From a virus, in IMG/VR virus record IMGVR_UViG_3300008952_000067, positions 1 to 53,158 of that record: 53,158 nucleotides of DNA; one strand, 5' to 3'. A model generated the notes under the pieces. The model was not told the DNA's origin. It did no database searches and saw nothing but the letters and a program-made list of their open reading frames with translations. Below, in pieces: positions 10,201-48,873 of this stretch. How positions within the stretch are numbered: the first letter of the stretch is position 1; each line of letters opens with the position of its first letter. The translations under genes and the position numbers were made by a program.

Positions 10201-10684
10201 CAATAAATTGCATACCGCCCTGTAGACGGGAGTCATTGGTATGGGTGGTAATAGCGGTGTCATCTGCATCGGTGAGGGCCCCGCCGACGTGTTCTGGTAA
10301 CCGTGGAAGACCACTATATTCGTTATCGCTGCCGTCATTGCTAACGACGGAAAATCCAGCATTCTTCACGATACCGTGGGTGCTGGTGTTACTTATATCG
10401 GTAAGCGATTCATTTGCACCCGCCCCCAATACTCTCATATATGTGACCGCTTTTCGGTGCTTCAAAAATTCTCGAACTGCATACGGGCCAAACCTGTGAG
10501 GGTCGAGGCTACCGAATGTCGTCTCAAAGTCCGCAAACGAACCAACTGTCACTGGTACGAAGGCCGGTCCCTTTACTGCGGTACCGATAATACCCCCAGG
10601 GGTGCCAGTAGGCGATTGCTTACGTGCTGATAGATCAATTTCCTGTTCAAAAAATCCAGGCGATCGGAATGTCTGTTCTGCCAT
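7211..10684 (-). CDS. 18: Tail sheath protein (gp18-like), first copy
   Basis: A 1157-residue tail sheath paralogue, larger than T4 gp18. It begins MAEQTFRSPGFFEQEIDLSA and has GTAVKGPAFVPVTVGSFADF and TYMRVLGAG near the N-terminus. The C-terminal core includes AYPWFAPAGFNRGALD, KSALDRVNVRRMLLEVKR and PTRAIEFIAIDFII. I chose the ATG at 10684 because GGAG lies 9 bases upstream and the paralogue starts at the matching residue; an in-frame ATG lies 57 bases upstream. It lacks the 585-residue insert of its neighbour but is still about 500 residues longer than T4 gp18, with extra material between the N-terminal and C-terminal core segments. The two genes are 48 bases apart and in the same direction, consistent with ancient tandem duplication. 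Confidence 0.9.
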   Translation of the reverse strand: MAEQTFRSPGFFEQEIDLSARKQSPTGTPGGIIGTAVKGPAFVPVTVGSFADFETTFGSLDPHRFGPYAVREFLKHRKAVTYMRVLGAGANESLTDISNTSTHGIVKNAGFSVVSNDGSDNEYSGLPRLPEHVGGALTDADDTAITTHTNDSRLQGGMQFIVARHEVKVMESEGFPVFTDNDSMDSDGADDNMVNLVRASIMVSSGTRLLIADGDQDLSAVAWASTAPNDYATIVAHDASTSDRGTFKLILSSSTGVDYGRDEGVPGLRVMTASLDPSNVSYIGKILNTDPDKFQEHEHLLWCDYAVEAELASVDETTHSVALLRGHKANYSDRDGDTQAAGQREYLQSFGRFDTRYTTPTTSWIISQPYGGTEYELFRFESLSDGAWANDKLKVSIANLRASTDPAYEYGTFEVQIRKFSDTDLQKEVLESYPECNLDPQSDRYIARQIGDYKVLFDFDAEDDEERRMVISGKYPNRSSVVRVLMNDLVDSGDACLPKDMLPFGFRGVPALKTNQLLSDGTDAHANPSALLHADAAAVAVAEAGNGAGTGWRLFGHDPDNAAGDTALAGGDDQTETGLVSAIVPPLPFRFKCSRGSVYAGEEADLDATRNGGGDHSFIGHPGDNERADSRFYWGVKTTRTPETGSMSNAALNANVSSKANPLVAAYTRFQGIAKLDNVTTGSGADDLNNNKFTLARVAFSNPISEADGTLRDLQGDAGAIEAEITGSVGAHMLEAAYIRNGVVDSSTYCIEDALLLDSSPAVRPRMTLATLVHNNKIKFNRFSEYCKFTTIFYGGHDGVNTLDYDISRMNDRASSSDDDGKARSDFLDDGLLHAKDMTEPDTDPVEPNNTSGAGRENNIVASYRKAVNMMTDAMTVNTNILCIPGIRDAYVTSHAADRTKAYSKAIYLMDIPYFTEDNTRLFAGTPSHSLLKPDVRETAEAFESRALDNNYSATYFPDVYIDDPLNNLKVRVPASIAALASLAYNDKVAYPWFAPAGFNRGALDMVSNVTTRLTAGDRDNLYDSRINPIAVFPNAGFVIFGQKTMQMKKSALDRVNVRRMLLEVKRLIVSVANNILFEPNTPQTRARFIGAVQPLLALVQAQAGVESFQVVMDDTNNTIEDYDNNRLNGRIVVVPTRAIEFIAIDFIITKSGVMFE

Positions 10685-10731
10685 TAGAAGATTCTCCTTG
10701 GACTCATGTCGCTCTTTACTAAGTATTGGGT

Positions 10732-10740
10732 ATAATACCA
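10732..10740 (-). promoter_or_regulatory. Candidate extended -10 promoter upstream of sheath genes
   Basis: TGGTATTAT on the minus strand matches the extended -10 pattern TGnTATAAT at all but one position. It lies in the 85-base gap between the gp15-like and sheath genes, about 48 bases before the sheath ATG. The surrounding GGTATTATACC is also a small inverted repeat. No clear -35 was found. Confidence 0.3.
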
Positions 10741-10769
10741 AACTTCTTGTTTACTATGCTCTCTAAACA

Positions 10770-25257: not shown

Positions 25258-27283
25258 TATCTTCGGTATCCTCTTCATCACCAAGCATGATCTCTATGTC
25301 TAAATCGTCATCAAGACCATCATCACTCTCAGAAATTAATCTTTTCCTTGGAATATTTATGGCGTTGGCCAGCTTACCTAAGGTAGATTCTACTTCACGA
25401 GTCATCTTTGCATGTTGAACAATCTTATCATCTAAATATTGTCCGAGGCTTGGGCTACGTAGTACTGTATTCTCCTTGAATGGATCTTTAAAGAAGTTGT
25501 CATCAAAAGGCTTATTAAGCGAATCTTGATTCCGGCCTGCGCGGCCGACTGATGTCATCTTAACAAAATCCGGCATATGAGTTGATCCAGGACCAGCGTG
25601 AGTTTTTCGCTGTTTTCTTACGGGCTCATTAAAGATATTACGGATTTGCTTTTGGGCTTTAGCAGGAGCATCATCATCATTGATTGACAAGATTTGAACG
25701 TCATCGTCTTCTTCATCGTCTTCTTCATCGTCTTCTTCCCCTGGTCGAAGTGATGTTAAAAGTTTCTCATCATCTTCTGCCTTCATATCCCCGGCAAATA
25801 ATCCGCCACCTTCATCGCCGCCGGCATCATCACCGCCCATATCGCCACCGGCATCACCACCGGCATCGCCACCACCTTCAGCAGTCGCACCTTCGACTTC
25901 CATATCCTTAATTTTATCAGCGAGGCGACCCTCTTCAATTCTTGTAATTTGTTCATCCGTCAAGCCAAGAACCTGTTTTCGGATATATTCTTTGTCAACC
26001 ATACCCTCAGGCGCAGTTCCAGCAATTTCGAAACGTGCTCTAATTAATTCCAGCTTTTGCTGCTGTGCAACCGACGACGGATTTGACAACATAAGCTCAA
26101 AATCTAACAACGCCTCACCATCGTAACCGTGGGAGTATAGATGGATCATGGCTAATTTATTAAGCTCTGCTAAGACTGTTTTTTGAATCCTTTGGATCGT
26201 ACGGGAAAAACGGATATCCTCTTGAGCCAAAGTTGCCTTTGATCCAATCTCTTCATCATATCCTAGATATGCTCGAGGAATTTTAAGGGCGGCAAAAAGC
26301 TTTTTCTGAATGTATTCAACGTCTTCGATGGCAGAGGTATTTGATCCACCTGCCAGCGTCTCAATGCTAGTACCAGAATCAGCACCCCGGACCGGAAGAA
26401 AGTAATCTTCATCAACAGAAAGTGGATTATATCTAAGATCAACCTGGCCAGTAGTCTTATCAACTACAGCGTTTCTTTTAAGCGATGACTGGGCCTGCTC
26501 AAGGTACTCTGCAACATTTTCTGGTGGGACGTTTCCAACATCAATCTTAAAAACGCGGCGTTCCGGAGCACGAATGATGCGATAAACTAACATTGCATCT
26601 TCGATAAGAATAAGCTGGCGCCAGATTCTCCTTGCCGGCTCTAGAACAGATGAACCATATGGCAAAAATGCATCATTACCCAATAACCTAAAATGTGACA
26701 CCTGCCAATTCTCTAAGATCTGGTTACCTTGTGTAACCCATCTAAATCGTACCGCGGATGGATCTTCTGGATCAAACCCTTCCTCTCTCTCTATTTCAGA
26801 GATAGGAATTGGGAACATGTTGATTACACCAAACTCAGGTGAAACATCATTGAATAAGAAAAAGTCGCCGTACTTGCAGAGGTTCCTAATCCACATAACA
26901 AGGTTAAACTCAACATTTAGAGTATCATAAAACAATGTCTCCAAAAGCTCTCTAATCTTTCGGTTTTCTGAGTATATGTGGAGTACTATTCCTCCCTCAT
27001 CAGGAGAAGACGTCTCCTCTGAATATATGTCCAAGGCCGCAGATATTTCGGGCGTCGCCTCCATCTCAGAGAAATCACTATAGCGTGACATCCGGTCGAA
27101 CGAGCCATATGAGCTTAAAGTGTTGTTATATATGTCGTTATACGCACGGGTGAATGTCTCAACAGCAGAAGACGCAGACTTAGCTACATCAACTCCCTTA
27201 ATGCGTCTTTTAACCTGCGGACCTGACCTAAAAAGTGTAGTCAGGCGCTGGAATAAATTCTGATTTTTCGCTTTAGGAGCCAT
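25250..27283 (-). CDS. 20: Portal protein (gp20-like)
   Basis: A 677-residue homologue of T4 gp20 (524 residues), the dodecameric portal through which DNA enters. Family-typical segments are YSDFSEMEATPEISAALDIY (about residue 65), EFNLVMWIRNLCKYGDFFLF, RIIRAPERRVFKIDVGNVPP, EDVEYIQKKLFAALKIPRAY with LGYDEE, and ATLAQEDIRFSRTIQRIQK. After the conserved part the protein gains an acidic extension containing GGDAGGDAGG-like repeats and a run of Asp/Glu (about residues 465-545). It then ends with a basic-acidic tail. The gene follows the terminase after 53 bases, and its stop overlaps the next start. Confidence 0.94.
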   Translation of the reverse strand: MAPKAKNQNLFQRLTTLFRSGPQVKRRIKGVDVAKSASSAVETFTRAYNDIYNNTLSSYGSFDRMSRYSDFSEMEATPEISAALDIYSEETSSPDEGGIVLHIYSENRKIRELLETLFYDTLNVEFNLVMWIRNLCKYGDFFLFNDVSPEFGVINMFPIPISEIEREEGFDPEDPSAVRFRWVTQGNQILENWQVSHFRLLGNDAFLPYGSSVLEPARRIWRQLILIEDAMLVYRIIRAPERRVFKIDVGNVPPENVAEYLEQAQSSLKRNAVVDKTTGQVDLRYNPLSVDEDYFLPVRGADSGTSIETLAGGSNTSAIEDVEYIQKKLFAALKIPRAYLGYDEEIGSKATLAQEDIRFSRTIQRIQKTVLAELNKLAMIHLYSHGYDGEALLDFELMLSNPSSVAQQQKLELIRARFEIAGTAPEGMVDKEYIRKQVLGLTDEQITRIEEGRLADKIKDMEVEGATAEGGGDAGGDAGGDMGGDDAGGDEGGGLFAGDMKAEDDEKLLTSLRPGEEDDEEDDEEDDDVQILSINDDDAPAKAQKQIRNIFNEPVRKQRKTHAGPGSTHMPDFVKMTSVGRAGRNQDSLNKPFDDNFFKDPFKENTVLRSPSLGQYLDDKIVQHAKMTREVESTLGKLANAINIPRKRLISESDDGLDDDLDIEIMLGDEEDTEDNE

Positions 27284-27336
27284 TGATACCTCTTTTCACT
27301 ATAGAATATACAGTAATACTACTCAAAATAAATTGC

Positions 27337-28938
27337 CTAATCTAGTAACCATGATAAATCCAGGTTCGGATCATCTTCATCAGCCTGCGTTGGTTCGGCC
27401 GCATTTAGAAGTCGCGGTTTATACGGGTTATGCGCAAATACATTAGCATCTGGTACTACAGAATCCTTCGCAGTATTTCTATTTACTCCAAATGCCTTTA
27501 ACATTGCAGCATTTAAGTCTACGGTTTGCCTATTGTGCCCGGGGGACGTATCATACAACCACACGCCAATTGCCAAGGCTAAAACTAGATCATCATTTTG
27601 CCCCTTTTGGGCTTGAGCCTTACTTCCCTTCCAGATAAACGTTTTAAGCTCGTTATATAGCCGGTCAGAGTATAATGTTATATGATCATTCCTTAAGACT
27701 TCTTCTAATTTTGTTAGAATTTGCGCACGGGATTGCCCTGATGTCGTAAATCCTGCCTTATGAATATGACTCTCACCAGAATACATTGCAGCGTACTTAT
27801 CCTTTTCTTTCTTATAGTAAAGATTAGGGTACTTAAGTTCAAGTAGCTTCATCACTACGGCATATCCGTATGTATTATTCTCTGGACACAATAGCGCTTT
27901 TCCATATCTCATACCGGCCTCATTGAGTAATATTGCAAATTGATCAGGGGGTATTTTTCCCTTATACTCTGCAACAATCTCTGATTCGTTTGTGTCAATA
28001 ACATGGAACGCGCTATAGTCACCGGCATCTCCACGGGCAACATCAGCAGATATAATATACTTGTGATCAGTGAGCGGATACTTCCAGACCCAAACTCCCA
28101 TTTCGGGGCCCCACTTCTCCAGAGGATGACGCACCTGAGTTCTAATTCTCTCAATATGTTCAGCGGATAGGAATGTTTCACCAGACGCTGCAAAGTCACA
28201 TAGAAGCTCTTGAGCAATCTGTTGCTGTGTCAAGTTTTTGCATTCATTCTCAAACCAATCATCACTACGCTCAGGGTGCACATCCCATGGGAGCTTAATC
28301 GGATTGAACTCACTTTCCCCAGCTGCGGCCTTCATATATAAGTCATAGTATTGGCCACCGACACCATTGGGTGTTGACAAGACAATCGCACGACCACCTG
28401 TCGATAGCGTAGGATATAGGCCCATCCAAAGCTCATCAAAATTTCTAACAAATGCAGCCTCATCAACGATTAGCAGGGTTAGCGCCTCGGAGCGACCTGC
28501 GTCATCTGATGTAGGGATTGCCTTTATAGTCGATCCATTCGTAAATTCAACCGACTGCTTATTATTAGTACTAAGCTCAGGAAGTATTAGCCACGGTGGA
28601 ATATGCTTAAGGGCAACCTTTACCTTTTTTATAAAGTTCATCGCCACACTCAATTTGGTCGCAATGACAAGGATATTTTTATCCTTATAGAAAATAGCTA
28701 ACCAAACAGCGTATGCAGCACTAAGGGTAGATATACCTAACTGCCGAGACTTCAAGATAACATTATATCGATGATTAACGAAATCATTAATACAATCATC
28801 CTGAAACTGGAAGGTGGCAAACGGAATCAGTCCACGTGTTGGGTGCTGGATCTTGACATATTTGTTGAAAAAATATCTCGGGTCTTTTCCGCACCTGACT
28901 ATTTCTCTAACCTGCCTTTGTTTATTGACAGTGGCCAT
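27337..28938 (-). CDS. 17: Terminase large subunit (gp17-like)
   Basis: A 533-residue ATPase-nuclease that packages DNA into the prohead through the portal. The Walker A-like motif is LKSRQLGIST (residues 62-71), Walker B with catalytic Glu is LTLLIVDE (153-160), and the coupling motif is LSTPNG (187-192). The RNase H-like nuclease contributes ISADVARGDAGD (Asp 299), CPENNTYG (Glu 353) and NDDLVLALAIG (Asp 449/450). The length is close to the family (610 in T4). The ATG is 3 bases after the preceding stop, with AAGAG upstream. No small terminase was recognised; the upstream 124-residue gene occupies a plausible place but shows no supporting motif. Confidence 0.95.
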   Translation of the reverse strand: MATVNKQRQVREIVRCGKDPRYFFNKYVKIQHPTRGLIPFATFQFQDDCINDFVNHRYNVILKSRQLGISTLSAAYAVWLAIFYKDKNILVIATKLSVAMNFIKKVKVALKHIPPWLILPELSTNNKQSVEFTNGSTIKAIPTSDDAGRSEALTLLIVDEAAFVRNFDELWMGLYPTLSTGGRAIVLSTPNGVGGQYYDLYMKAAAGESEFNPIKLPWDVHPERSDDWFENECKNLTQQQIAQELLCDFAASGETFLSAEHIERIRTQVRHPLEKWGPEMGVWVWKYPLTDHKYIISADVARGDAGDYSAFHVIDTNESEIVAEYKGKIPPDQFAILLNEAGMRYGKALLCPENNTYGYAVVMKLLELKYPNLYYKKEKDKYAAMYSGESHIHKAGFTTSGQSRAQILTKLEEVLRNDHITLYSDRLYNELKTFIWKGSKAQAQKGQNDDLVLALAIGVWLYDTSPGHNRQTVDLNAAMLKAFGVNRNTAKDSVVPDANVFAHNPYKPRLLNAAEPTQADEDDPNLDLSWLLD

Positions 28939-28941
28939 ACT

Positions 28942-29316
28942 TTACTGCACTCTTAAAATACAATTCCGTCTATAGATCGCAATCTTTCGTGGATTGTGAT
29001 TTGTAGCTGATACCATCTCTAGACTATCCGAGTTTGATACCTCTTCAAGCTTGAGTGTAGAACCGGCTACTTCCTTATATTGGGCTTTTGTGTGATCAAG
29101 CTTTCCAGCAATTACCTGGATTGATTCTTCAACCAGTCTATCGACCTGCTGCTTTAATGCATACTCTGACGCAAAGTGAACGACTGTCGCATACTTTATG
29201 ACCATTTCATCGTGCTGCAACGCGCACGTTAAAGATCTGGTGCCGTCGCCGCTGCTCTTTCCCCAGGTGTAGTTAACTACATCGCTAAGTTGATTTAATT
29301 CGTCTTTTGAAATCAT
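28942..29316 (-). CDS. Hypothetical protein upstream of terminase (124 aa)
   Basis: Function not recognised. The 124-residue product has an N-terminal helix (SKDELNQLSDVVNYTW), a Gly/Ser turn (GKSSGDGTRSLTCALQHDEM), a central amphipathic helix (YALKQQVDRLVEESIQVIAG), and a final basic strand (NPRKIAIYRRNCILRVQ). It is directly upstream of the large terminase with a 3-base gap. A small-terminase role is therefore possible but unsupported by a helix-turn-helix. An exact AATAATTAGATAG motif lies 22-34 bases upstream of the ATG. Confidence 0.6.
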   Translation of the reverse strand: MISKDELNQLSDVVNYTWGKSSGDGTRSLTCALQHDEMVIKYATVVHFASEYALKQQVDRLVEESIQVIAGKLDHTKAQYKEVAGSTLKLEEVSNSDSLEMVSATNHNPRKIAIYRRNCILRVQ

Positions 29317-29337
29317 GACTATCTCCTAGATGCCTCC

Positions 29338-29350
29338 CTATCTAATTATT
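29338..29350 (-). promoter_or_regulatory. Promoter-like motif AATAATTAGATAG (copy 2)
   Basis: Exact 13-base match to 14076-14088 in the gap upstream of the gene that precedes the terminase. Its similar spacing to a start codon suggests a promoter or regulatory element; proposed from repetition only. Confidence 0.3.
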
Positions 29351-29361
29351 CTGGTGACTGA

Positions 29362-29670
29362 CTATTTGACCTGATAGATGAAGGAGGGCAAACAATTTCT
29401 TCTTTCTACTTCTTTTGTTATCTCTTCCTGCTGTGGGCGCCAACCGTCTATCCACTGCCTAGAATTAGGTTGCGCCCACTTAACTGAACAATTGTAACAA
29501 CAACTATACCTCTTGTGTTCAACCAAGTCTGTAAAATCTTTCATTAGAGACCCACAAACATTGCACTCTACTGGAATAACGTCTGGATATTGCTCAGGAA
29601 TAATTATCAAGAACCCGGCCGGATGCTCAGTCATTTTTCTATCATTGGCCATCTTCTTCCAATCAGCCAT
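29362..29670 (-). CDS. Zinc-ribbon protein (102 aa)
   Basis: A small protein with two Cys pairs: CNVC (in VIPVECNVCGSLMKDF) and CCYNC about 20 residues later, followed by SVKWAQPNSRQWIDGWRPQQ. This is a treble-clef or ribbon-like zinc site. No catalytic residues. The start is within the 3' end of the Mre11-Rad50 fusion gene; I chose the second of two adjacent ATGs because GAGAGG lies 6 bases upstream. From memory, similar CxxC proteins with a W-Q-P-W-GWRP tail occur near terminase genes of marine phages, but no function is known to me. A nucleic-acid-binding or transcription role is only a guess. Confidence 0.65.
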   Translation of the reverse strand: MADWKKMANDRKMTEHPAGFLIIIPEQYPDVIPVECNVCGSLMKDFTDLVEHKRYSCCYNCSVKWAQPNSRQWIDGWRPQQEEITKEVERRNCLPSFIYQVK

Positions 29671-32600
29671 CATTTGCCTCTCTGCCGTTACAATATACTT
29701 TGGAATCCTTTCCCTTTTTAGAGATGTCGATTACATTATCAACGATATCCTTTACTCCGTCCACATGCGAAATAACGATAATGTTTCGGAACCATCTCTT
29801 AAGAGACTTAAGCAATCGGTTACAAGACTCAACATTCATGTCATCTAGGGCGCCGAATCCTTCATCAATAATTAGCAAATCTGTCTTCGGGAGGGATGAT
29901 ACGTTAATAAGCGCTACCCTAATTGCTAGTGAAGACATCATCTTTTCCATGCCTGAGGCACACTCTATAATTCTTCTGGAGTCCCCATAATTGATGTATA
30001 TATCCATTGTATTGCTATTGCTGTCTGCCTCAAGCTCGACTGTAAATCCAACAACATCCTGTAGAATCTTTGATATCTCTGCATTAATTGCTGGAAGCTG
30101 TGATGTTATAATCTGGAGTGGGATTCCCTTCTTCGAGACGGCTGTCATAAATAAATCATACACACGCCACTCCGCCATAAGCTCTTTATACTCATCACGT
30201 TGAGATTGAAGCTGCTCAATTTCGCTAGTCAGCAGGCCTACGGATTCTGAAAGTGACATCCTTCGAATGTCCAATGTATTAATACTAGAGACCAGGTCGT
30301 TAATTTTACCCTTAAGGCTGCTAACCTCTAACGCGTCGTCGCCGTCAGACACCCGGAGCCGCATGCTGGCAAGATCCCTTTTTGCATCTTCTAGTATCGT
30401 CGCTAATGAAGTTTTTGCCGTTTGCTTTTCATGAAGCTTGACAGTGTTCTTCGAAATCTTAACCTTCAACTGGGATTCTTGTTGTATTAGTCCCTCATAT
30501 TTTTCTAACTTCGTTTGTAGGTCTTCCTTTTGTAGGACCTTTAATGACTTCTTAGCAGCACGAATTTGATCAAGGAGGCCAGCAACCACATCAGCCTGCT
30601 CAACTGCTAACTTTTTATTTTTATGGGACTCTTTGATGTACTTACACATGGGAAATGTGTCGCCACAAGGTACCTCTTCAAGCTTAGCAATCGACTTCTT
30701 TTGGGACTTTAATAATGTTTTTTCGCTTGAATGATTGTGCTCAAGGCCGACTAGGTTTCTTTCAAGATCCTGTTGTGCCTCGAAACGTTCCCTTAGATCA
30801 TCGATAGGAAACATCTCTTTTACAGACTTAATCTTATTCAGTTTTTCCTGCATCGCCGTAATATTCGTTGAGATTTCCATGGCACCCAGGACCATTGTAT
30901 CCAGCTTATGACTATCCTCAAGAATGTTCTGTTCTTGCGTCTCAATATCAGCTGTGGTAACAAGATCCTTATCTTTGTGGGTTGCCAAAATAATCTTAAG
31001 GTCTTCATGCTTACGACGAGATGATGTTAACTTATCATCAACCGCTTCTCTATCTTTTGTCTTTCTATCTCGTTCTATAGTCTTCTCAAGAATTATTGTA
31101 TCCCATTCTCGGTCCGGAGCTTTCTTAAGGGTTGCAGATATACCGGCTGACTCATCCTTTGCAATCGACAACATTTCTTCAAAAATATTAAGATCAAGAA
31201 AATTTGTAAGAATCTCCTTTCGCTTTGTTGCCCTATGCTTGATAAAGTTGTTCATCTCTCCCTGGCTGGCAAGCGAGGTCATTAAAAAATCATCAGAAGT
31301 ACCGATAAGGCGTCGGACCACCTTTTCAGTTTCTCGGCGTTGCTCACCGCTAAGGTCCTGTATGACATTTCCATCATCATCAATCATAAATAAATTTAGA
31401 TGAGTTACGGCATGTTGTATGCCACGTTTTGTTTCATGTTTTGTTGATTGTCTCTCGACCCTATACAATCGCCCATTGACAGATATGTCGAGATTAACTC
31501 TACAAAATCCCTTTCGGGCATTAATAATATGAAGATTCTTAATTGGGCCACGGTCAGTTGTATTGTATAGCCCGTACATAATTGCGCCGGGAATAGAAGA
31601 CTTACCAGTCCTATTTGGGCCAAAAAGACCAGTGATGCCACTTAGCTCTGAGAAGTCTACAACATTGCCCTTCCCATAGCAGAACATATTGTCGAACTCC
31701 ACCCGGCGCACCGACCACTTCGTGTTTCTTGCAGAATCTCCATGTGCAATCTGATTCACAAATCTTAATGTTAGATTATCTAAAGATGTCCATTCATCAT
31801 CTGAGAGTTCTAAGTCTTTATAGTATTCTCTCATTAACTTGCAGTGCGTTCTCGAATCCCTAAGATCATCCTTAAATAAACTTGTGCCGTTAGTACTAAT
31901 AACTGACAAATCTGTGTCATAGTCATTCTTGTACACAATCTCAGCAGCTTCCTTAAACTCCTTAAGGGCACTATGCAATTGCTTAATCTCGGCCTGGGGC
32001 ATTAACTTATTTGTTCGGATTCTAAAACGTGAGCCATCAGGAGCTTCTTCCGCGAGATCTAAAGTCGATGCAATATCACCTGTCCAGTCGATTGTTACAA
32101 ACGGCATTGTATGAGGAATTTCATAGAATGTAGAGTTATATTCATCCCTTGATTTAATATCCCAAAACAAGAAACCCTTTCCAGGATCCTCACCATAATT
32201 CTGCTGAATCGTAGAACCGGGATATGCGATGCGTTTTTCTTCATCAAGATACTGTAGCTTGTGAATATCTCCCAAAAATGTAAAGTCCCAATCGCTAAAG
32301 AATCCTACGTCAACTTCACCCTCAATATTCCAATTAATATCAGTTGTTGATCCCTCTACACCACCATGAAATGTTGCAATGTTAATCTCACCGGGTACTG
32401 GCTTGACATCTTTCCAACCCTCAGTATCAAAGCATGAAAAAATACCCCAATTGTACCCGGGTACACCGGTCGGATATGTACCAGACTTCTTATATAGATG
32501 TAAGTTTGGATTATTTATGGCGGTGATAATAGGACTAATGGCGTCTTGCCTATCCTTATTCAACATTAGGCCGTCATGATTTCCTAAAATAATATGAGTA

Positions 32601-32824
32601 GGAGCGACATCTGCCAGACTTGAAAACCACCAGTTCAAAAGATCAATTAGCTCAGGTGAAATACCTTGGGTCTTTGAGTGAACAATATCACCACCCACAA
32701 AAATAACATCGGGCTTAAGCTCGCTAGCTATCTTAAAAAAATGAGTAAACGATTCACGATACTCATCATGTCTAGTCAGACCTCTAAAATGAATGTCAGA
32801 GATATGCACACACTTAAAACTCAT
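29663..32824 (-). CDS. Fused Mre11-Rad50 (gp47-gp46/SbcD-SbcC) nuclease-ATPase
   Basis: A single 1053-residue chain joins two T4 recombination proteins normally made separately. The N-terminal phosphoesterase shows DIH (10-12), GGDIVHS (44-50), GNHDG (81-85), HGG (153-155) and GDIHK (185-189). From about residue 373 comes the SMC-like ATPase: Walker A GPNRTGKSS (402-410), Q-loop SLASQGEMNNF, long coiled coils with C720-x6-C727 at their middle, signature SGMEKMM (957-963), and Walker B LLIIDEGFGALD (983-994). It would resect DNA ends for recombination-dependent replication. I chose the ATG at 32824 because GGAG lies 8 bases upstream. The hook CxxC normally seen in Rad50 is replaced by C-x6-C. 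It lies between primase and a zinc-ribbon gene. Confidence 0.93.
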   Translation of the reverse strand: MSFKCVHISDIHFRGLTRHDEYRESFTHFFKIASELKPDVIFVGGDIVHSKTQGISPELIDLLNWWFSSLADVAPTHIILGNHDGLMLNKDRQDAISPIITAINNPNLHLYKKSGTYPTGVPGYNWGIFSCFDTEGWKDVKPVPGEINIATFHGGVEGSTTDINWNIEGEVDVGFFSDWDFTFLGDIHKLQYLDEEKRIAYPGSTIQQNYGEDPGKGFLFWDIKSRDEYNSTFYEIPHTMPFVTIDWTGDIASTLDLAEEAPDGSRFRIRTNKLMPQAEIKQLHSALKEFKEAAEIVYKNDYDTDLSVISTNGTSLFKDDLRDSRTHCKLMREYYKDLELSDDEWTSLDNLTLRFVNQIAHGDSARNTKWSVRRVEFDNMFCYGKGNVVDFSELSGITGLFGPNRTGKSSIPGAIMYGLYNTTDRGPIKNLHIINARKGFCRVNLDISVNGRLYRVERQSTKHETKRGIQHAVTHLNLFMIDDDGNVIQDLSGEQRRETEKVVRRLIGTSDDFLMTSLASQGEMNNFIKHRATKRKEILTNFLDLNIFEEMLSIAKDESAGISATLKKAPDREWDTIILEKTIERDRKTKDREAVDDKLTSSRRKHEDLKIILATHKDKDLVTTADIETQEQNILEDSHKLDTMVLGAMEISTNITAMQEKLNKIKSVKEMFPIDDLRERFEAQQDLERNLVGLEHNHSSEKTLLKSQKKSIAKLEEVPCGDTFPMCKYIKESHKNKKLAVEQADVVAGLLDQIRAAKKSLKVLQKEDLQTKLEKYEGLIQQESQLKVKISKNTVKLHEKQTAKTSLATILEDAKRDLASMRLRVSDGDDALEVSSLKGKINDLVSSINTLDIRRMSLSESVGLLTSEIEQLQSQRDEYKELMAEWRVYDLFMTAVSKKGIPLQIITSQLPAINAEISKILQDVVGFTVELEADSNSNTMDIYINYGDSRRIIECASGMEKMMSSLAIRVALINVSSLPKTDLLIIDEGFGALDDMNVESCNRLLKSLKRWFRNIIVISHVDGVKDIVDNVIDISKKGKDSKVYCNGREANDG

Positions 32825-32845
32825 ATAAATTTCTCCGGGCAAGTT

Positions 32846-33823
32846 CTAAAATAACGAGCCACTCTTTATAGAGCCTATTAAGTGGTATAATCGGTCTTTC
32901 GAACTCCACTTTTTGGCCCTGCTCTTTGCTGACAAAAATTCAACTTTTGTCATTTCGCCAACATCACTATACGGACCTAAGTCTAAGATCCTTACATCAA
33001 TGCCATATGATGATAATTTTTTAGCGTATTCCTGGGCCTTAAGGGTCATATCGGCATCCATTGCCAATAAAACGTTTGTTCCGCTTTTAATAATCTTCTG
33101 GAACAAGCTATAATCTTCAGAAAAGTGCGAACCCAATAAGCATGTCGAATTACTATCACATTTTGTTAGATCAAATGGACCCTCGACTAAGGTTAGTTCC
33201 CTATTCCAATCAATGTTAATTTCATTAAAGATAACATTCTTTTTCGGCACCTTGGCATTGATGTATTTCATTTTTTTGTCATCTTGATCAATCGTTCTAG
33301 CGACAAAGTAATTAATATCACCAACTTCATCAAATGAAGGCATAATTACGCGGCGACGGTATCGGCCGGTCGTACAAGTTCCAAACTTAAAATACCATAA
33401 ATCACGATTTGTCAATCCACGAGATCTTACATATCGTATGGTATCCTTTATATCTGGATCTTTTGAGTCTAAGCTGGTTGCTAATAACCTAAATCCTTTA
33501 GGCACGACCACCGGAATTTCAACAGTTTGCTCTGGAAGAATTAACTTATTCTTCTTTGAATAAAACTTTTCTTGATACTCTGCTAAGAAATGGGGGAAAT
33601 GTGACCGAAGAAGGTATACGAGGTCGCGACCCTTTATGTCACATACCAAACAATGATAATGATCAGAGTCGATTCGAATTACCAACTTTTTCTTCGAAAC
33701 GCTACCATATGAGCCACATTTCGTGTTTGGACAACAAACGGCAACATTTAAGCCATCTGTCCCAATAACACATGTTCCAAATATACGATTAAAAAACGTT
33801 ATTTTTTCACTTACAGTAGACAT
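32846..33823 (-). CDS. DnaG-type DNA primase
   Basis: A 325-residue primase that would make RNA primers for lagging-strand synthesis. The N-terminal zinc-binding domain has CCPNTKC (30-36) and HYHCLVC (55-61). The Toprim catalytic core has LVEGPFD (212-218) and AMDADM (254-259), the metal-binding acidic residues of the family, and VARTIDQDDKKMKYINA preceding it. T4 gp61 is 342 residues. No helicase domain is fused and none is in the window. The ATG at 33823 has GGAGG unusually far upstream (16 bases), so the start is moderately certain. It follows the RuvC-like gene and precedes the Mre11-Rad50 fusion. Confidence 0.88.
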   Translation of the reverse strand: MSTVSEKITFFNRIFGTCVIGTDGLNVAVCCPNTKCGSYGSVSKKKLVIRIDSDHYHCLVCDIKGRDLVYLLRSHFPHFLAEYQEKFYSKKNKLILPEQTVEIPVVVPKGFRLLATSLDSKDPDIKDTIRYVRSRGLTNRDLWYFKFGTCTTGRYRRRVIMPSFDEVGDINYFVARTIDQDDKKMKYINAKVPKKNVIFNEINIDWNRELTLVEGPFDLTKCDSNSTCLLGSHFSEDYSLFQKIIKSGTNVLLAMDADMTLKAQEYAKKLSSYGIDVRILDLGPYSDVGEMTKVEFLSAKSRAKKWSSKDRLYHLIGSIKSGSLF

Positions 33824-33873
33824 CTTGTTATAATATACACCTCCGGACCGAAAGTGTTCATTTTGATCAGGTC

Positions 33874-34434
33874 TTAATCTTCGACGGGTCGACTTAATGA
33901 ACCGGCCATGGCTATAACATACGCATCAGCTACGTCATAACATCCTGGTTCGAATATCTCTACCCCTTTCCGGGGTCCTGACTTGAGTATCTTTTTGGGC
34001 CAAGCATATTTGACACGCTGGCTAACCCATTCAAGTACCTGTTCCTTTGTGGGTGCACCGCCTTTGCGTTTCGAAATGATCTTAAGGCCGACAGCCTTTC
34101 GGGCGGCCTGTACGTTTATAAATTCAGGTTGACAAAAGAATTCTTCTTGTGCTATATAACTTACGACGCCGTTAAATCTGGCTAAAGTCAATAGCGTTTT
34201 TGCAGATGATAAACCGGGACGAAATGCCTGCAGGTTTTCTTCAATATATACTTTGTCAATATCATGGTGGATATGGAGTCCAGATAGCTCATCCCGAACC
34301 CTACGAGCCTTGTGGTAGGCAGAATTGCAGTCAGACAGGGGAATATACCCCATCTCAACAAGGCCTCCACCAGGGCCAACTATGCACCACCCAGTGCAAC
34401 TAGTTGAAATGTCTAATCCAAGGCTACTGCCCAT
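33874..34434 (-). CDS. RuvC-like Holliday junction resolvase (RNase H fold)
   Basis: A 186-residue endonuclease candidate with the RuvC layout. The first strand is SSLGLDISTSCTGWCIVG (first catalytic Asp at residue 7), the second acidic residue is in KVYIEENL, and the C-terminal acidic pair is in GCYDVADAYVIAMA. Between them is NVQAARKAVGLKIISKRKGG, typical of the substrate-binding region. It would resolve branched DNA before or during packaging, as endonuclease VII does in T4 by an unrelated fold. Its ATG overlaps the stop of the 1734-residue gene by one base (TAATG). Family is fairly sure; in vivo role inferred. Confidence 0.85.
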   Translation of the reverse strand: MGSSLGLDISTSCTGWCIVGPGGGLVEMGYIPLSDCNSAYHKARRVRDELSGLHIHHDIDKVYIEENLQAFRPGLSSAKTLLTLARFNGVVSYIAQEEFFCQPEFINVQAARKAVGLKIISKRKGGAPTKEQVLEWVSQRVKYAWPKKILKSGPRKGVEIFEPGCYDVADAYVIAMAGSLSRPVED

Positions 34435-37400
34435 TAAAAGTCTACCTTAACTCGAAATACCATCTCATCCTTATCTCTCTTGACAACAGGTTGAGCTAGA
34501 TTTGTCCTTGCTATAATATTAAGGTTCTCATCATGGAAGTTCAAGCCGGTGATATAGACGATATCAGCATCCTCGTCGCTAGCAGCTAAAGATGCAGATA
34601 GTGGTTCAAATCGAGGATTTGAAGATGAATTAACCTGGCCGCCCTCACATGGAACAAATATTTCCATAATATGCAGGTTCTGATGACCGGCCATGTTGAC
34701 CTGGAATTGTTCTTTTCCAAATAAGGGTATACAAGGATTATGGACTACGGCAACACCTTCTTCATAAATAACATTACCAACGCTAGCCCACTCAGGATGA
34801 GGAGTCTCTGCGTCAGAACGGTATAGTGTTCCATGACCATTATCTGATAGTGATATTTTTACCTTGCCGCCAGAGCCTGTCACATCATGATCAATCAACT
34901 CGTATGTTCTTTGCTGGATCTTCTTACCGTAAAATAGGTTTGAGGCATCAAAAAATACGACTTGATTCGATGAGTTATCCCTAGTACGCTGGAAGATTGT
35001 TAATACCGAACCCGGGGCGACACCGGGATTTTCCGGAGCTGCACCGGCCACTTCGGCTAAAAGACTGGTCTCAGATGTGTCTTCACCCCCATCGGAGTCC
35101 ACAGCAATTAAGCCGGGGTATAGTGAGGAGGTTGGAACTAAATTGTTAAGGGTTACCAGGCTGTAATCGATTGTACCAAAGTCATTAACGAACTTACAAG
35201 ATGCATGACCCTCTGGCGGCTTCACTTCAAAACTACCGGTTGATAGAAATGTAAAGTCTGGCTTGAACTTGCCGTTATCACAGGGCAGAATTGTTAGGTT
35301 TCTCTTTCGGATAGACGCCGTAGCAAACAAATACTCATTTGCCTCGCGAGGTTCCTGTGCAGTTATATCAATTGAAGAGCCAGTAAGGTTTAATAATAAT
35401 GGATATGAACCAGATACGAACTCACGACAGAAATTCTCCAGATTCAATAAGTGGCCGCCGACGCCAAATGACATTGCCACATTGAAGGGGTCATCAGTAG
35501 TCGTTGCCATAGTCTGAAACGGTGTTATTAGGACTTCCCGCTCGGGGGATTCTCGTACAAAGTAAGGAGGTAAGTAAAATAATAGATTATCTTCTACTTC
35601 GGCCGATCCTGTTGCCATAGAAGACCATAACTGTGGTAATGTCCTATACTCATCCCAGATTTTGACCTCATGGATCTCTGCATTGAGTGGGTGCCTTAGA
35701 AAGTAGGTATTCGGTTCTAGCGGATCAGGATCATCAGCAGTCCAACCGGACTCAGAATCGACATCATCAATTCTACTCCACGGTACACCATGCATCTCAT
35801 TAGCCTCATAGCTAAAGAATGCCGCGGCATACTGTGTTGCATCAGAATCTATAGATACTACCTCATTATATACAAGGTCTCCACCGAACTCAGTTTGTAG
35901 GTCGGCTAAATTGAAGGCCAGCGTCGATGATAAAACCGGTGTATAGTCAAGCTCACTAACGGTATCGGCAATATATGCCGCATCATAAGCGGCTTTAGCA
36001 GCAGCGGGGTCAGCATATGGTATGTTTGCCAGCGTTACATATTCGGTTACGCCTGAAATTAGCCTATCAGTTACCCAGTCGCCGTTCCACTTTGCAATTA
36101 CACCATTTTGATTTACCCACATTGGTAAGTCATTATCATCTGTCTCTTGTACGTACCATGCACTCTTATAAGAAACTGCCTCATGCTCAAATGTTGGGTT
36201 ACCATCGGCATCTAACCATTGAGACGTCTGCTCATATACCGACCCGTTGAATCCTTCGAAATAATTGCCTACAAAAAGTACGGAGGGATCTGCTTCAATT
36301 ATCATATTTGCTGGATCGTCGGTCACACGAGGTGTATCATCTCCGAACTCAGTCGGAATACATGAGCCTGATGGTATGTCAAGCTCAGAATCGATCACAC
36401 CGTCAATTAAGATCTGTGCCTTGCCGTCGTCGACCAGGTGTGTGCCCCATCTTATGGCGATATGATGCCAATGATTTTTAGTAAGTGAGTTATCTGATGA
36501 TAAGAATATAAGGTTTGACCCTTCAACTTGATCATCAGACGCGTCGCGTACGCCATCAGGCTCGACAGGACCCTCTGGATCTGTATCTGATAATTCCCAT
36601 TTAGTAGTGTCATAGTCGTAGTATTTGTATGTTCCATACTGGCCGTTTTCCAAATATGGAATATTAGACGGCGGAATGTCAGCACTACTACTAAGTTGTA
36701 CCATTATTCTATATGTGTCCGGATGACCTTCTTTATCAATATGACTGCCGGTAACCAAACTTATGGCGTAACTGGATGACATATGGAGGATTGTTCCAGC
36801 TTTAAATGGGTGGGATTGCGTGCGGTCCACAACTACATGATCTCTACCACCCTCGAGGTGAAAACCGGTAATATCAATACCATCTGCTGGATCATCTAGA
36901 TCAATATCAGAACCTATGGTGTATACACCGGCAGCATCATTCCATTCGTATGCGTCGCCTTGCTTATCGGCAAAGGCTTCCCTGGCATCCTCGTCTACGC
37001 CAGCTGTATTCTCAATATGTTCGACCCAAGACCAGTTACCAGCACCGTCGTCTTCCCAGGCCCACCATGTAAACTGAGTTTGGCGTGTAGTTACAATTGA
37101 ATATGCGCCACCGTTACCATCCCAACCAGGAATCTTTGTCTGGAAGTGAACAATTCCGTTTACCTCCGTACACTCATATGTCAGGACCGGCTCATAACTT
37201 TGGCCAAGGGCCCAAGCTATTAATTCATCATCTGTCGGTACTGCGGGGACAACAGCATATGTGTGATATACTGGGACATATCCTTGAGCTGTCATATAAT
37301 CTGTCTCAACAGGGGTCAGCGTATAATTACCTGGTGGGTCGACAGCGGATCCATCGGCATAGACAGCGCTATACCCATGTGCTTCAGCCCATGCTGCCTC

Positions 37401-39638
37401 AGTCCACTCGATAGCGCCCTCTTGATCCGACGTGACATTTCCACCTATCTCAGAATCCGTATATCCGGTATAATTTTTAGAATCATCCCCTGTGTTGCTG
37501 GCAATCACTGTGGTATCTAGATCATCATCACTCCACCGCAGGCCGCCATCATCGACCTGTTCTGGATACCCTATATCTTCTGCGGTCGTTTCATCTTCCA
37601 GAAGTGTGCCGCCAACAGGCATCCATATCAAATACCCATCAGAAGTCTTCTGATAGTTGTTTATGTCATCAACCTCATCCTTAACTATAGCTTCCTGCCA
37701 GGTGTACTCGTTTAGCCCGTTGTCATCTGTCCATAGTGGTAACTCGGCTTCGTTGATTTTCTGCTGGCCGTTTTCATCATATACCTCTAGTTTCTCTGCC
37801 CAGGCAGTCCAATTTTCATGACCGTTGATAACATTTGCAAGGTTTTCAGCAGTTACGTAGTTATCAAAATCCCCAAGCTCATTTTTGCCGACGGACCACT
37901 GCCTGTAATCCTGAATGTTTTTTGGGCCCACTAGAGGGAACTCGTCGTCTGCGGCGACTCCATTATTTAGTACTATCTTAACATCCTTAGCAATAAACTC
38001 GCCAGTGCGGAAGTCGTAATCCGGAGATTCATCACCTTTATCGGTAATAAGATTTGCAGTTTTGCCTATATACCCACGTGATGTTGCCCATGCAAACTCA
38101 GGCCAAGAACCATAAGTCGCTGGATCATCTGGAAGACCGTCACCATTAGGATCTGCAACCTCAGCAGAGACATCAACTGTATCATCAGCCAATAAATAAA
38201 ACCCCGTATATCCTAATACGGAAGGTACTTTCCAGTTATCAGGGTCAGACGGAATAGAGTACATTCTATCTGTAAGGACTGGAAGCTCAGTGCCACCTCG
38301 GCCACCTTGATAGAAGTCTATAAAAAGCTTTTCCCAATCGACTATGGCGAATGAACCGGTTGCGTATGAGTCTACATCATCAATTGTATACCTGGGGTTG
38401 ATATAGAACTCGAATGTAAATGAGCCAGACGGAATATACGGAATTACACTTGGGCTAACTGTCTCATCTGTAAATGAAGGGTACAATAATGCAGAATCTT
38501 CTGGAACTAATGAAGACGTAAAGAAGTTCAATGTATTATAGTTCGAAAATGCCCAATGCAAGGATGGATGCTTTGTCCTGTAGTATGGAAAGAGAACATC
38601 CTTTATAACGTTCTTACGTAAGCTATCGCTTGTCAGCTTAAATGAAGGTTCAAACCTAGTAACCTTGACAGTCGTTTGTTTTCGAGATGAAACCTCAGAA
38701 TCATTAACGAAGCTAAGGTACTTATCCATCATAGCGTTAATAGACGTAGCAGCACCTGATGTTACTACTTCAAGATCCATAATGTCATATGGAAATGTTG
38801 GTAATATTTGATCACCTACACCGTCACCATCGAGATCATCATCTAGAATTGGATCACCGGTAATAGGGTGTGTGATGACCCCCGTTACGGGTTCTATGCA
38901 TGCGCCGTATTGTGTATTTTCTATGTCGATAGTTGCAGATGTATTACCAGAACTAAATGTAGCCTCAAAAGCCGAGACGCTAGAAATCGCAGCAACGGTA
39001 GCACTAGCTACTGCCTCTAAAGCTCCAGAAACGTCATAATTCGCCGGCGGTAAGCTTGAATCTCCAACAGCAGAGAGATGTTGCAGGTCTATCATATGAA
39101 GAGTGCCGGTGGGCGGTGGCGGTGGCGCCGGATAATCGCGTGATGAGGGCTCCATTAAATGACCGGACTGGGTCGAATTAGAAAAATAAAACCTGCGGAT
39201 TGCGCCCCAGGGCTCAGCTAAGTCGAAATATGCAAACTGAGCGTAGTTATGATGAGAATGACCTATAAGATCTCTATAGTCAAAGGCCCCAGACGTGCCG
39301 TAGCCAGCACCAATCTTAGCTATTGGAGACTCAGTCTTAAATGTCACCCGGGTTACTTGTTTAATCTGTACCGGTTCTGTTATCGATGCAGTAAAGATTA
39401 AATCTTGGCGATACCCTTCGACTGTATCATCACCATATGAGTCATCTACATTATCATCAAAGGCCTGAAGCTTCTGGGCTTCTTTTTCGAACTTGGAGCG
39501 CTCTGCAAATACGTATACAGAGCCTTCTTCCCCCGTGGGACGGATGCTCTCATTAGACGCGGAAGTATACGTCCTTCTCGGATGTGTTTCTAGAGTAAGG
39601 TGCTCAAAATAATCTTTTGTTAGTCCGAATATCGCCAT
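34434..39638 (-). CDS. Giant virion/tail-associated protein with ConA-like segments (1734 aa)
   Basis: A 1734-residue, acidic, beta-rich protein, probably a tail fibre or baseplate-associated virion component. A concanavalin/LamG-like fold appears split. A first strand (GSFTFEFYINPRY, about residue 405) is separated by some 530 residues from FKAGTILHMSSSYAISLVTG (about 945) and from NHWHHIAIRWGTHLVDDGKA with QILIDGVID (about 1060). The insert contains repeated helix-GY-V units (for example WTEAAWAEAHGYSAVYADGS and TAQGYVPVYHTYA). Asp-rich loops such as DDDLDGDGVGD look like calcium-binding sites. The C-terminal 35 residues match those of the next gene upstream. Its stop overlaps the RuvC-like start, and an 18-bp palindrome lies 39 bases before the ATG. 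Confidence 0.7.
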   Translation of the reverse strand: MAIFGLTKDYFEHLTLETHPRRTYTSASNESIRPTGEEGSVYVFAERSKFEKEAQKLQAFDDNVDDSYGDDTVEGYRQDLIFTASITEPVQIKQVTRVTFKTESPIAKIGAGYGTSGAFDYRDLIGHSHHNYAQFAYFDLAEPWGAIRRFYFSNSTQSGHLMEPSSRDYPAPPPPPTGTLHMIDLQHLSAVGDSSLPPANYDVSGALEAVASATVAAISSVSAFEATFSSGNTSATIDIENTQYGACIEPVTGVITHPITGDPILDDDLDGDGVGDQILPTFPYDIMDLEVVTSGAATSINAMMDKYLSFVNDSEVSSRKQTTVKVTRFEPSFKLTSDSLRKNVIKDVLFPYYRTKHPSLHWAFSNYNTLNFFTSSLVPEDSALLYPSFTDETVSPSVIPYIPSGSFTFEFYINPRYTIDDVDSYATGSFAIVDWEKLFIDFYQGGRGGTELPVLTDRMYSIPSDPDNWKVPSVLGYTGFYLLADDTVDVSAEVADPNGDGLPDDPATYGSWPEFAWATSRGYIGKTANLITDKGDESPDYDFRTGEFIAKDVKIVLNNGVAADDEFPLVGPKNIQDYRQWSVGKNELGDFDNYVTAENLANVINGHENWTAWAEKLEVYDENGQQKINEAELPLWTDDNGLNEYTWQEAIVKDEVDDINNYQKTSDGYLIWMPVGGTLLEDETTAEDIGYPEQVDDGGLRWSDDDLDTTVIASNTGDDSKNYTGYTDSEIGGNVTSDQEGAIEWTEAAWAEAHGYSAVYADGSAVDPPGNYTLTPVETDYMTAQGYVPVYHTYAVVPAVPTDDELIAWALGQSYEPVLTYECTEVNGIVHFQTKIPGWDGNGGAYSIVTTRQTQFTWWAWEDDGAGNWSWVEHIENTAGVDEDAREAFADKQGDAYEWNDAAGVYTIGSDIDLDDPADGIDITGFHLEGGRDHVVVDRTQSHPFKAGTILHMSSSYAISLVTGSHIDKEGHPDTYRIMVQLSSSADIPPSNIPYLENGQYGTYKYYDYDTTKWELSDTDPEGPVEPDGVRDASDDQVEGSNLIFLSSDNSLTKNHWHHIAIRWGTHLVDDGKAQILIDGVIDSELDIPSGSCIPTEFGDDTPRVTDDPANMIIEADPSVLFVGNYFEGFNGSVYEQTSQWLDADGNPTFEHEAVSYKSAWYVQETDDNDLPMWVNQNGVIAKWNGDWVTDRLISGVTEYVTLANIPYADPAAAKAAYDAAYIADTVSELDYTPVLSSTLAFNLADLQTEFGGDLVYNEVVSIDSDATQYAAAFFSYEANEMHGVPWSRIDDVDSESGWTADDPDPLEPNTYFLRHPLNAEIHEVKIWDEYRTLPQLWSSMATGSAEVEDNLLFYLPPYFVRESPEREVLITPFQTMATTTDDPFNVAMSFGVGGHLLNLENFCREFVSGSYPLLLNLTGSSIDITAQEPREANEYLFATASIRKRNLTILPCDNGKFKPDFTFLSTGSFEVKPPEGHASCKFVNDFGTIDYSLVTLNNLVPTSSLYPGLIAVDSDGGEDTSETSLLAEVAGAAPENPGVAPGSVLTIFQRTRDNSSNQVVFFDASNLFYGKKIQQRTYELIDHDVTGSGGKVKISLSDNGHGTLYRSDAETPHPEWASVGNVIYEEGVAVVHNPCIPLFGKEQFQVNMAGHQNLHIMEIFVPCEGGQVNSSSNPRFEPLSASLAASDEDADIVYITGLNFHDENLNIIARTNLAQPVVKRDKDEMVFRVKVDF

Positions 39639-39748: not shown

Positions 39749-41350
39749 TTAGAAGTCTAATCTAACGCGAATCGTTATGTCCTTCTCATCATTCTTCTCA
39801 ATTGGCCTGGAGAGTTTGGCTACGGCTAAAAGATTATCATTGGCATCATACATCCCGACCGTGGTCGCGAACGTGAATGATCTCTGGGTATCTTCTTGGC
39901 CTTCATCAATTACTCTTACCCTATTCTCTTCATCAATATATGTCGGATTTGATGAGTAATTAAACTCATCGGCAGTTGTTCTACAGAAAATAAGTGTCGA
40001 ATTAATCGTTGTAACATTCTGAAACGTTATTGCAGTTAAAGAACCTGACTGGAATCGACATGTTGAAAAATGATCAACAATATTATCAATTGACCCTGAC
40101 ACTAGAAAGTCTGGAACAAACCTTGCGTACGGATTACCGGCACCATAATTGTCACCGGTACCATCCATATACCCTGGGTTGGCATCATCATCATCATTCG
40201 AGTCTAGAGCAGCGTTTGAGTACTCAGAAAGTGTTCCGGTAACCGGATGCCCTTGCCAGCCATATCCTATTCCTACCTGCCCGTTTGATACTGATACGAC
40301 ATATGCCTTGTCAGAAGATCCGGCGGGCATTGCGCTAAGCGACTGTACAATATCATCAGAATCGATGTCATTTCCATCGGGCTCTGGATTGCCTTCTTCA
40401 TTATTTGCATAGCTAATCCACGCGCAGCTCGATGTGACCTGTGTTACCGTCTCAGCATTCATTCCATCAATTATGCCCATTACAGCTTGATCAGGATCAA
40501 TAATTCTATCAATATTAAATACTGCTACACCGGCATCATAAAACAACAATCCTACCTTTGTTGACGTGTCAGCAGAATCAACGATGTCCGCAACCTCACC
40601 ACCGAATGTTGTTCTCTTACTAGTGGCAGCACCAATATCTGTAAAGATTGCCACGCTGCCTGTGGACGAAACGTTTAAGTTCGGTGTAATACCATCCGCC
40701 CAATAAGGTGGGGGGTCTACAATATGATTACCATCGGCATCAAGCTCAAGTTCTGGATTTCCAATGGCAATAAGCTCGCGTTCCGTAAGATCCGCCTCAC
40801 GTCGGCATCGATAACTATTACCGGCCAGCGAAGCAGACTGATAAAACCTCATTGCGAAAGTTTCTCTTTTGATCTTGTCTCTTGCAAATAGTCTCTTAAA
40901 GCATACGAAGAATGCATTATCAATTCTGTCACTTTCTTCATCAGACCCAAAGGGAGTCGTAAAGTAAGCATCTGCATCACCTAATAGGGTAGCAGCAAAT
41001 TGCTTGTAGACATCAACCTTTTCTCTCATCATTAAAGATTCAGACGGAAAAAGAAGCTTCCCAGAAGCATCCTCTGAAACTAGTGAATCTTGAACTGTCG
41101 AGCCACTAAAGTAGAGGCCGACAGTCATATCCATAACCGCATTAGCACTTTGTAGTGTATGATCCTGATCGTATATCGTCTGGAACAGGGAAGATGTAAC
41201 ACCTTGGCCGATTCCGCCTGTAACGAAGACCTGGAACTGGCGTCTGGTATCAGAGCCTGAAATGTCCTCTTGTATAATATCGACTAGCTGATTCAGCGCT
41301 GAGCGGCTGGTTTTGATATCAGCGGCCGAAATTTCTTTAAACGTTGCCAT
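39749..41350 (-). CDS. Virion structural protein (533 aa)
   Basis: A 533-residue protein with a helical N-terminus (FKEISAADIKTSRSALNQLV, then DIIQEDISGSDTRRQF) followed by VTGGIGQGVTSSLFQTIYDQ. From memory, proteins opening this way are common in the structural modules of uncultured marine T4-like viruses. A helical block (KVDVYKQFAATLLGDADAYF) precedes a long Asp-rich beta region. The last 35 residues (MYDANDNLLAVAKLSRPIEK, then ITIRVRLDF) correspond to the end of the 1734-residue neighbour (NIIARTNLAQPV, then FRVKVDF). This suggests a shared attachment or assembly module. Precise function unknown; likely tail or baseplate. Confidence 0.65.
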   Translation of the reverse strand: MATFKEISAADIKTSRSALNQLVDIIQEDISGSDTRRQFQVFVTGGIGQGVTSSLFQTIYDQDHTLQSANAVMDMTVGLYFSGSTVQDSLVSEDASGKLLFPSESLMMREKVDVYKQFAATLLGDADAYFTTPFGSDEESDRIDNAFFVCFKRLFARDKIKRETFAMRFYQSASLAGNSYRCRREADLTERELIAIGNPELELDADGNHIVDPPPYWADGITPNLNVSSTGSVAIFTDIGAATSKRTTFGGEVADIVDSADTSTKVGLLFYDAGVAVFNIDRIIDPDQAVMGIIDGMNAETVTQVTSSCAWISYANNEEGNPEPDGNDIDSDDIVQSLSAMPAGSSDKAYVVSVSNGQVGIGYGWQGHPVTGTLSEYSNAALDSNDDDDANPGYMDGTGDNYGAGNPYARFVPDFLVSGSIDNIVDHFSTCRFQSGSLTAITFQNVTTINSTLIFCRTTADEFNYSSNPTYIDEENRVRVIDEGQEDTQRSFTFATTVGMYDANDNLLAVAKLSRPIEKNDEKDITIRVRLDF

Positions 41351-41367
41351 AGGTAACTATCCTCTTT

Positions 41368-42081
41368 CTAATCCTTGCTGACTTGTACTTCGAACTCTTT
41401 AACGGCGCCAGACTGTACGCCACCGATGCTAATCACAGATGAAATTACACTCTTATCGCTAGCATTTCCGTAAATTAAGAATTGAGCGTCTGTTAAAGAT
41501 TTCGTTTCCACTTCAAATGTTAATCTTGAACCGCCAGTAGAGGTTGTTGTTGGATCACGGGTAACAATATATGTTGCAATGTTATCTGCATCAACATTGT
41601 CTGGTGTAAGACCCTTTAATTGCAAAAATCTGCTTGGTACCTTTACCAAAAACACCTGATCTCTTAACTCAACGTCAATACTGCTTTCGTTCTGAATCTC
41701 TTGCGTTATCGTTAACGTCCTACTAGAGCCGGCACCGGAGCGACTCATTGATAATGTTGTTCCAGATGAATCAATACCCTCGCCTGTCAAAATTAAATTA
41801 GGCAATCTAATTAAATTGGGATTCGAAACACTAATCATCTTGTATTTCAACGCCAGATTGCCGCTAGTTTGGGCTTCAAAAACAGGGGTATTTTTTTCAA
41901 TTTTTTCTTTCCCGACTGTCCTCCCAAACTTCTCAATTATTGTATAATCAACCTCATCATCACCCAGGGCAAATTTTACGATAGAAAATGAACCATCATT
42001 CCTTGCTAGGAATGCACGGCCGGTGTCTGTCAAAACTGCGTCTACAATGATGTTATTAGTTGAATGATCTAGAAAACCCAT
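41368..42081 (-). CDS. Virion-type protein with conserved N-terminal module (237 aa)
   Basis: A 237-residue protein opening MGFLDHSTNNIIVDAVLTDT, then GRAFLARNDGSFSIVKFALG and DDEVDYTII. This N-terminal module resembles that of the 323-residue gene at 51502-52473. The remainder is beta-rich, with no catalytic motif. It is 17 bases before the 533-residue gene and 27 bases after the 626-residue gene, inside the large structural block. I recall similar proteins in marine phage structural modules but no experimentally assigned role. A baseplate or tail-fibre attachment role is plausible. Confidence 0.65.
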   Translation of the reverse strand: MGFLDHSTNNIIVDAVLTDTGRAFLARNDGSFSIVKFALGDDEVDYTIIEKFGRTVGKEKIEKNTPVFEAQTSGNLALKYKMISVSNPNLIRLPNLILTGEGIDSSGTTLSMSRSGAGSSRTLTITQEIQNESSIDVELRDQVFLVKVPSRFLQLKGLTPDNVDADNIATYIVTRDPTTTSTGGSRLTFEVETKSLTDAQFLIYGNASDKSVISSVISIGGVQSGAVKEFEVQVSKD

Positions 42082-42108
42082 CTATATGCTCCTCAGATAA
42101 ATATATCG

Positions 42109-48872: not shown

Positions 48873-48873
48873 C

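Follow-up and report, generated by a model that had tools for sequence, protein, structure and literature searches.

A single-chain SbcD–SbcC (Mre11–Rad50) protein in a T4-type phage, from a new branch of a known kind of fusion

Fusions of Mre11 and Rad50 in one chain were described by Yoshida et al. in 2011 in Mimivirus (R555), a Bacillus phage, plasmids and eukaryotes, and those authors favored several fusion events (PMC3175470). Most of the fusions keep the capping and helix-loop-helix (HLH) regions and have about 9–12 extra residues ahead of Rad50; in the two-chain T. maritima complex, the C-terminus of Mre11 lies about 28 Å from the N-terminus of Rad50, a gap that needs 9–12 residues (PMC3175470). 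In R555, Asp242 occupies the place of the His206 ligand of Pfu Mre11 (PMC3175470). R555-like aquatic sequences were inferred to be viral and perhaps from phages, and marine ones were tied to viruses and to adjacent phage primase genes (Yoshida et al. 2011, PMC3175470). Here we analyze a fused gene in a 53,158-nucleotide stretch of viral DNA (IMG/VR record IMGVR_UViG_3300008952_000067), which is called the window. A preliminary description of this DNA had set the fusion against the two separate subunits of T4 and bacteria, a contrast that is not new given the fused forms described in 2011 (PMC3175470).

The reading frame on the minus strand spans 29663..32842, or 1059 codons counted from its first TTG. 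Its start codon is likely ATG 32824, which is preceded by GGAGAA at 32836–32831, and therefore the gene extent of 29663–32824 given in the preliminary description is correct. The same description had placed a gp47/SbcD phosphoesterase and a complete gp46/SbcC ATPase in a single frame; this was confirmed by matches to Metallophos (Pfam; residues 10–165, E 6e-11) and PHROG_77 SbcC (residues 281–1049, E 4e-55) and by the motifs on a 74-sequence alignment. Solved Rad50 and Mre11 chains were also matched, as were AAA_23, SMC_N and SbcC Walker B, all three under Pfam's own cut-offs. Matches to the TIGR models SbcC and SbcD fell under the curated cut-offs, which is expected because the phage protein is divergent. 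The chain runs from an SbcD/Mre11 phosphoesterase and cap through a Mre11-type HLH and an 8-residue linker to a complete SbcC/Rad50 ATPase, whose coiled coil bears an apical cysteine hook:

32846..33823, minus: DNA primase-like gene directly upstream (PHROG_47, E 6e-33; synteny in relatives)
32831..32836, minus: Shine-Dalgarno-like GGAGAA preceding ATG 32824 (direct reading)
29663..32824, minus: fused SbcD/Mre11–SbcC/Rad50 gene, 1053 aa plus stop, single intact ORF
31925..32824, minus: Mre11/SbcD nuclease and capping domains, residues 1–300 (Pfam; motifs in 74 sequences; SbcD fold match)
31745..31855, minus: Mre11 C-terminal HLH, helices 324–334 and 342–360 (AlphaFold2 position and secondary structure)
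31721..31744, minus: linker, residues 361–368 (AlphaFold2 model and family alignment)
31190..31720, minus: N-terminal half of the Rad50/SbcC ATPase, residues 369–545 (Walker A GPNRTGKSS, Q-loop Q521)
30674..31189, minus: ascending coiled coil, residues 546–717 (model helices)
30635..30673, minus: apical hook loop, residues 718–730, VPCGDTFPMCKYI, CX6C instead of CXXC
30137..30634, minus: descending coiled coil, residues 731–896 (model helices)
29687..30136, minus: C-terminal half of the Rad50/SbcC ATPase, residues 897–1046 (signature ASGMEK, Walker B LLIIDE, D-loop GALD, H-loop H1020)

In the ATPase half, a long coiled coil separates Walker A and the Q-loop from the signature, Walker B, D-loop and H-loop. 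G407-K408-S409, S957-G958-M959-E960, D987-E988 and D994 are invariant in the 74-sequence alignment, and Q521 and H1020 are kept in 73 of the 74. Compared with the heads of E. coli SbcCD, the ATPase parts matched 7yzo_D over 349 residues (Z 30.1, rmsd 3.2; VIA-align). The one unusual detail of the fused protein is its hook: the apical loop of the window protein has CX6C, and the CXXC zinc hook is absent from the coiled-coil apex. Across the family, CX6C (PCGDxFPxC) is found in 66/74 sequences, CXXC in 7/74 and neither in 1/74, while the hook is CXXC in all two-gene phage proteins checked. Judged by its other features, the protein is assigned to the wider SbcC/Rad50 ATPase family and to the fusion family, and not to the CXXC-hook form. 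We tentatively raise the possibility that a large group of uncultured phages has a single-chain Mre11–Rad50 with a structurally different putative hook (PCGDxFPxC, CX6C), one that might still join two molecules and differ from the CXXC zinc hook in metal affinity or tethering.

In the nuclease half, phosphoesterase motifs I–V are present with their metal ligands (D10, H12, D46, N82, H153, D186 and H188) and the catalytic histidine H83, and all eight residues are invariant across the alignment. The nuclease and cap fold matched SbcD 7dog_A over 276 residues (Z 25.9, rmsd 2.8; VIA-align), with SbcD matches at Z 25–26. The one substitution among the motifs is in motif V, where the first His is replaced by Asp (GDIH) in all fused proteins examined; among the phage pairs encoded by two genes that were tested, GHxH is found in all but Providencia phage PSTCR5 (GDLH). 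With an invariant D186 instead of the canonical metal-binding His of Mre11, activity or metal preference could differ. D186 and the CX6C hook could also be taken as signs of a degraded or repurposed homologue, in which the nuclease is inactive and the protein is retained for DNA tethering or structure. This is improbable: Mn can be bound by Asp, the same change is reported for Mimivirus R555 and occurs in the two-gene protein of PSTCR5, and across the 74 sequences none of the remaining nuclease ligands varies and almost every position of the ATPase motifs is invariant.

An AlphaFold2 model built from the 74-sequence alignment (mean pLDDT 86.3, pTM 0.50) placed the nuclease and cap at residues 1–300, followed by a low-confidence loop (303–315), the HLH, the linker (361–368) and the ATPase from a strand beginning at 369; the coiled coil then ascends to 717, turns at the 718–730 loop and descends to 896 ahead of the second ATPase half. 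With a pTM of 0.50, the relative placement of the domains is not confidently predicted. The capping fold match reaches residue 300 and the HLH, the presumed Rad50-binding element, is retained at 324–360. The linker has 8 residues (family range 7–11, usually 8 or 9), one below the 9–12 estimate, and this modeled length fits the ordinary Mre11–Rad50 arrangement. The preliminary description had proposed that fusion fixes a 1:1 stoichiometry and changes how the active sites are arranged. A covalent 1:1 ratio follows from the single chain, but the second proposal finds no support, as an HLH is retained where the Rad50-docking one normally lies and the linker is near what the ~28 Å gap requires.

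The working ratio would depart from 1:1 if internal initiation or proteolysis gave a free Rad50 part beside the full-length protein, and the fused gene does have GGAG 9 nt ahead of an ATG at codon 380. A start there, however, would delete the first ATPase strand (369–378). No conserved internal start was found at the joint: Shine-Dalgarno-like starts within residues 330–400 occur in 4 of 74 members, at four different sites, which is within the background of other stretches. Internal translation into separate subunits, an objection raised with the preliminary description, is thus not supported, and a free Rad50 product is regarded as unlikely.

That the single-chain protein is real was examined in relatives. 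Two scans of viral contigs gave 95 related loci, the second scan keeping the best 80 of at least 584 relatives (at least 600 candidates), and four phage records brought the loci examined to 99; one of the loci, a two-gene Bacillus phage, was taken in for comparison. With a single ORF defined as one spanning query residues ≤60 to ≥1000, both halves were covered by one ORF in 87 of the 99, which is not an unbiased rate, since selecting the best matches favors full-length fusions. The other 12 comprise nine loci at a contig end, the split Bacillus phage pair, one interrupted gene (L003) and one that ends early (L010). The closest relatives among the matches listed have 65–68% identity. In 12 relatives with contigs of 69–320 kb, a single SbcC-like match and a single SbcD-like match were found per contig, both being the fusion; no separate second SbcC or SbcD gene was found in these contigs, although genomes of these uncultured relatives might encode a separate subunit elsewhere, as the contigs may not be complete. 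One scan of bacterial genome contigs gave weak matches (~21–39% identity, best E 1e-18), many of them to the ATPase part alone.

These data also bear on whether a missed stop or an indel has merged two adjacent genes. Such an artefact has a precedent in Listeria phage LMTA-57 (KJ591605.1, 3417–6446), deposited with a 1009-aa SbcD–SbcC fusion; its sequence is one base off that of A511 in an A run and reads through the intergenic stretch, and this fusion is probably a sequencing artefact. For the window gene, a second IMG/VR contig matches window positions 26309–38824 (12.5 kb) at 100% identity, 87 of 99 loci have the single ORF, and independent fused orthologues at 39–68% identity already refute the artefact. 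The joint contains no intergenic DNA and can be aligned in 74 sequences with protein-like codon differences. In 15 close pairs, these differences numbered 71, 40 and 188 at codon positions 1, 2 and 3, with a third-position excess in every region, the joint included; although under weaker constraint than the catalytic domains, the joint is clearly coding. The identical contig and dozens of fused orthologues exclude the hidden stop against which the preliminary description had cautioned, and the chance that two genes were merged in error is negligible. Chance is not a serious explanation of the fused ORF.

Collectively, the fused protein is very probably a genuine single-chain SbcD–SbcC (Mre11–Rad50, gp47–gp46) nuclease-ATPase of a T4-type tailed phage, most likely acting as an M2R2-equivalent homodimer that resects DNA ends for recombination-dependent replication. 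Two chains would form an ordinary M2R2-type head, with the nuclease parts dimerizing and the two ATPase parts engaging upon binding ATP. Since a linker of 8 residues allows little more reach, each HLH would dock on the base of the coiled coil in its own chain. With ATP, the dimer would then bind DNA ends and resect them, and thereby serve recombination-dependent replication and phage genome repair. The proposed role in end resection and bridging is by analogy with T4 gp46/gp47, as summarized in PMC3175470. The fused protein does not overturn the current view of how Mre11–Rad50 works. A single chain of ~120 kDa could suit biochemistry and cryo-EM, with one gene, a fixed stoichiometry and mutations placed in one chain.

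Among known fusions, R555 and its mimivirus-group relatives (Tupanvirus, Klosneuvirus-group; BFVD) likewise have an N-terminal Mre11, an HLH, a short linker and a C-terminal Rad50, and the mimivirus-group proteins gave the best BFVD structural matches, near whole length, with Tupanvirus first (22% identity). The R555 type shares the Asp at the Pfu His206 position (D186 in the window protein, invariant in 74; Asp242 in R555), but the chains are longer (1351 aa in R555 and 1379 aa in Tupanvirus, against 1053 aa here) and the hosts differ. Microcystis phage Mel-JY01 has the same fusion as one ORF of 1066 aa (WWT39521.1) with GDIH and a primase-like gene just upstream, but differs in its ~30% identity and CXXC hook. 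A 735-kb huge phage (LR756501.1, 2986–6591) also has both parts and GDIH in one ORF, of 1202 aa, at ~23% identity and with a CXXC hook; it sits on a very long branch. The mimivirus-group matches and the Mel-JY01 fusion identify the window protein as a new, abundant branch of the fusion kind described in 2011, and not as a new architecture. Apart from the 2011 paper, the openly accessible literature searched yielded nothing on fused SbcCD, nor anything on altered hook spacing.

Folds and motifs are shared with bacterial SbcCD and archaeal/eukaryotic Mre11–Rad50, which have two subunits, a CXXC hook and a His metal ligand. T4 gp47/gp46 and the SPO1-like SbcD/SbcC pairs, the latter often clustered with a primase gene, contain the same enzyme parts but are encoded by two genes and differ in their motif V (GHxH) and hook (CXXC), and they fall on the opposite side of the tree. 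In that tree, built from 24 fused proteins and 8 concatenated proteins of two-gene phages, a 100/100 branch has all fused proteins to one side; sampling began from the window protein, some of the branches are long, and the tree lacks R555, 0305phi8-36 and the plasmid fusions, so a single origin is allowed but not proven.

The phage is T4-type by its portal, terminase, major head protein, head protease and tail sheath. Whole-length fusions occur in phage contigs, here near T4-type terminase, portal, capsid, protease and tail-sheath genes, and this supports the 2011 suggestion that the abundant aquatic R555-like sequences are partly from phages. The fused ORF's first TTG is 4 bases away from 32846, the annotated end of the primase gene, and the two genes are probably co-transcribed. 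The primase lies directly upstream of the fusion in 6 of 7 contigs checked, SbcD/SbcC/primase clusters are also seen in phages with the two-gene form, and farther upstream of the fusion there is a gene for a RuvC-like resolvase. A role in anti-phage defence was considered and rejected: the PADLOC LmuB and mad models match the Rad50-like ATPase part alone, and the neighbors are phage replication and virion genes.

Elsewhere in the window, 7211–10741 encodes a 1176-aa tail-sheath homologue whose best sheath-family stretch is residues 860–1175, so a large N-terminal extension may exist. Large ORFs (533–1734 aa) lie at 34434–39638 (1734 aa), 39749–41350, 42109–43989, 43989–48872 and 48874–51495; the four from 39749 to 51495 had no PHROGs match, and all five possibly encode virion or tail proteins. 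No Rfam match to an intron or RNA element was found in the window or in LR756508. In the latter, a 484-kb phage (L003, LR756508.1, 2935–7160), the fused gene is broken just past the nuclease motif GDIHKRQ; the interrupting ORF (305 aa) has a TnsA-like endonuclease domain and may be a homing element.
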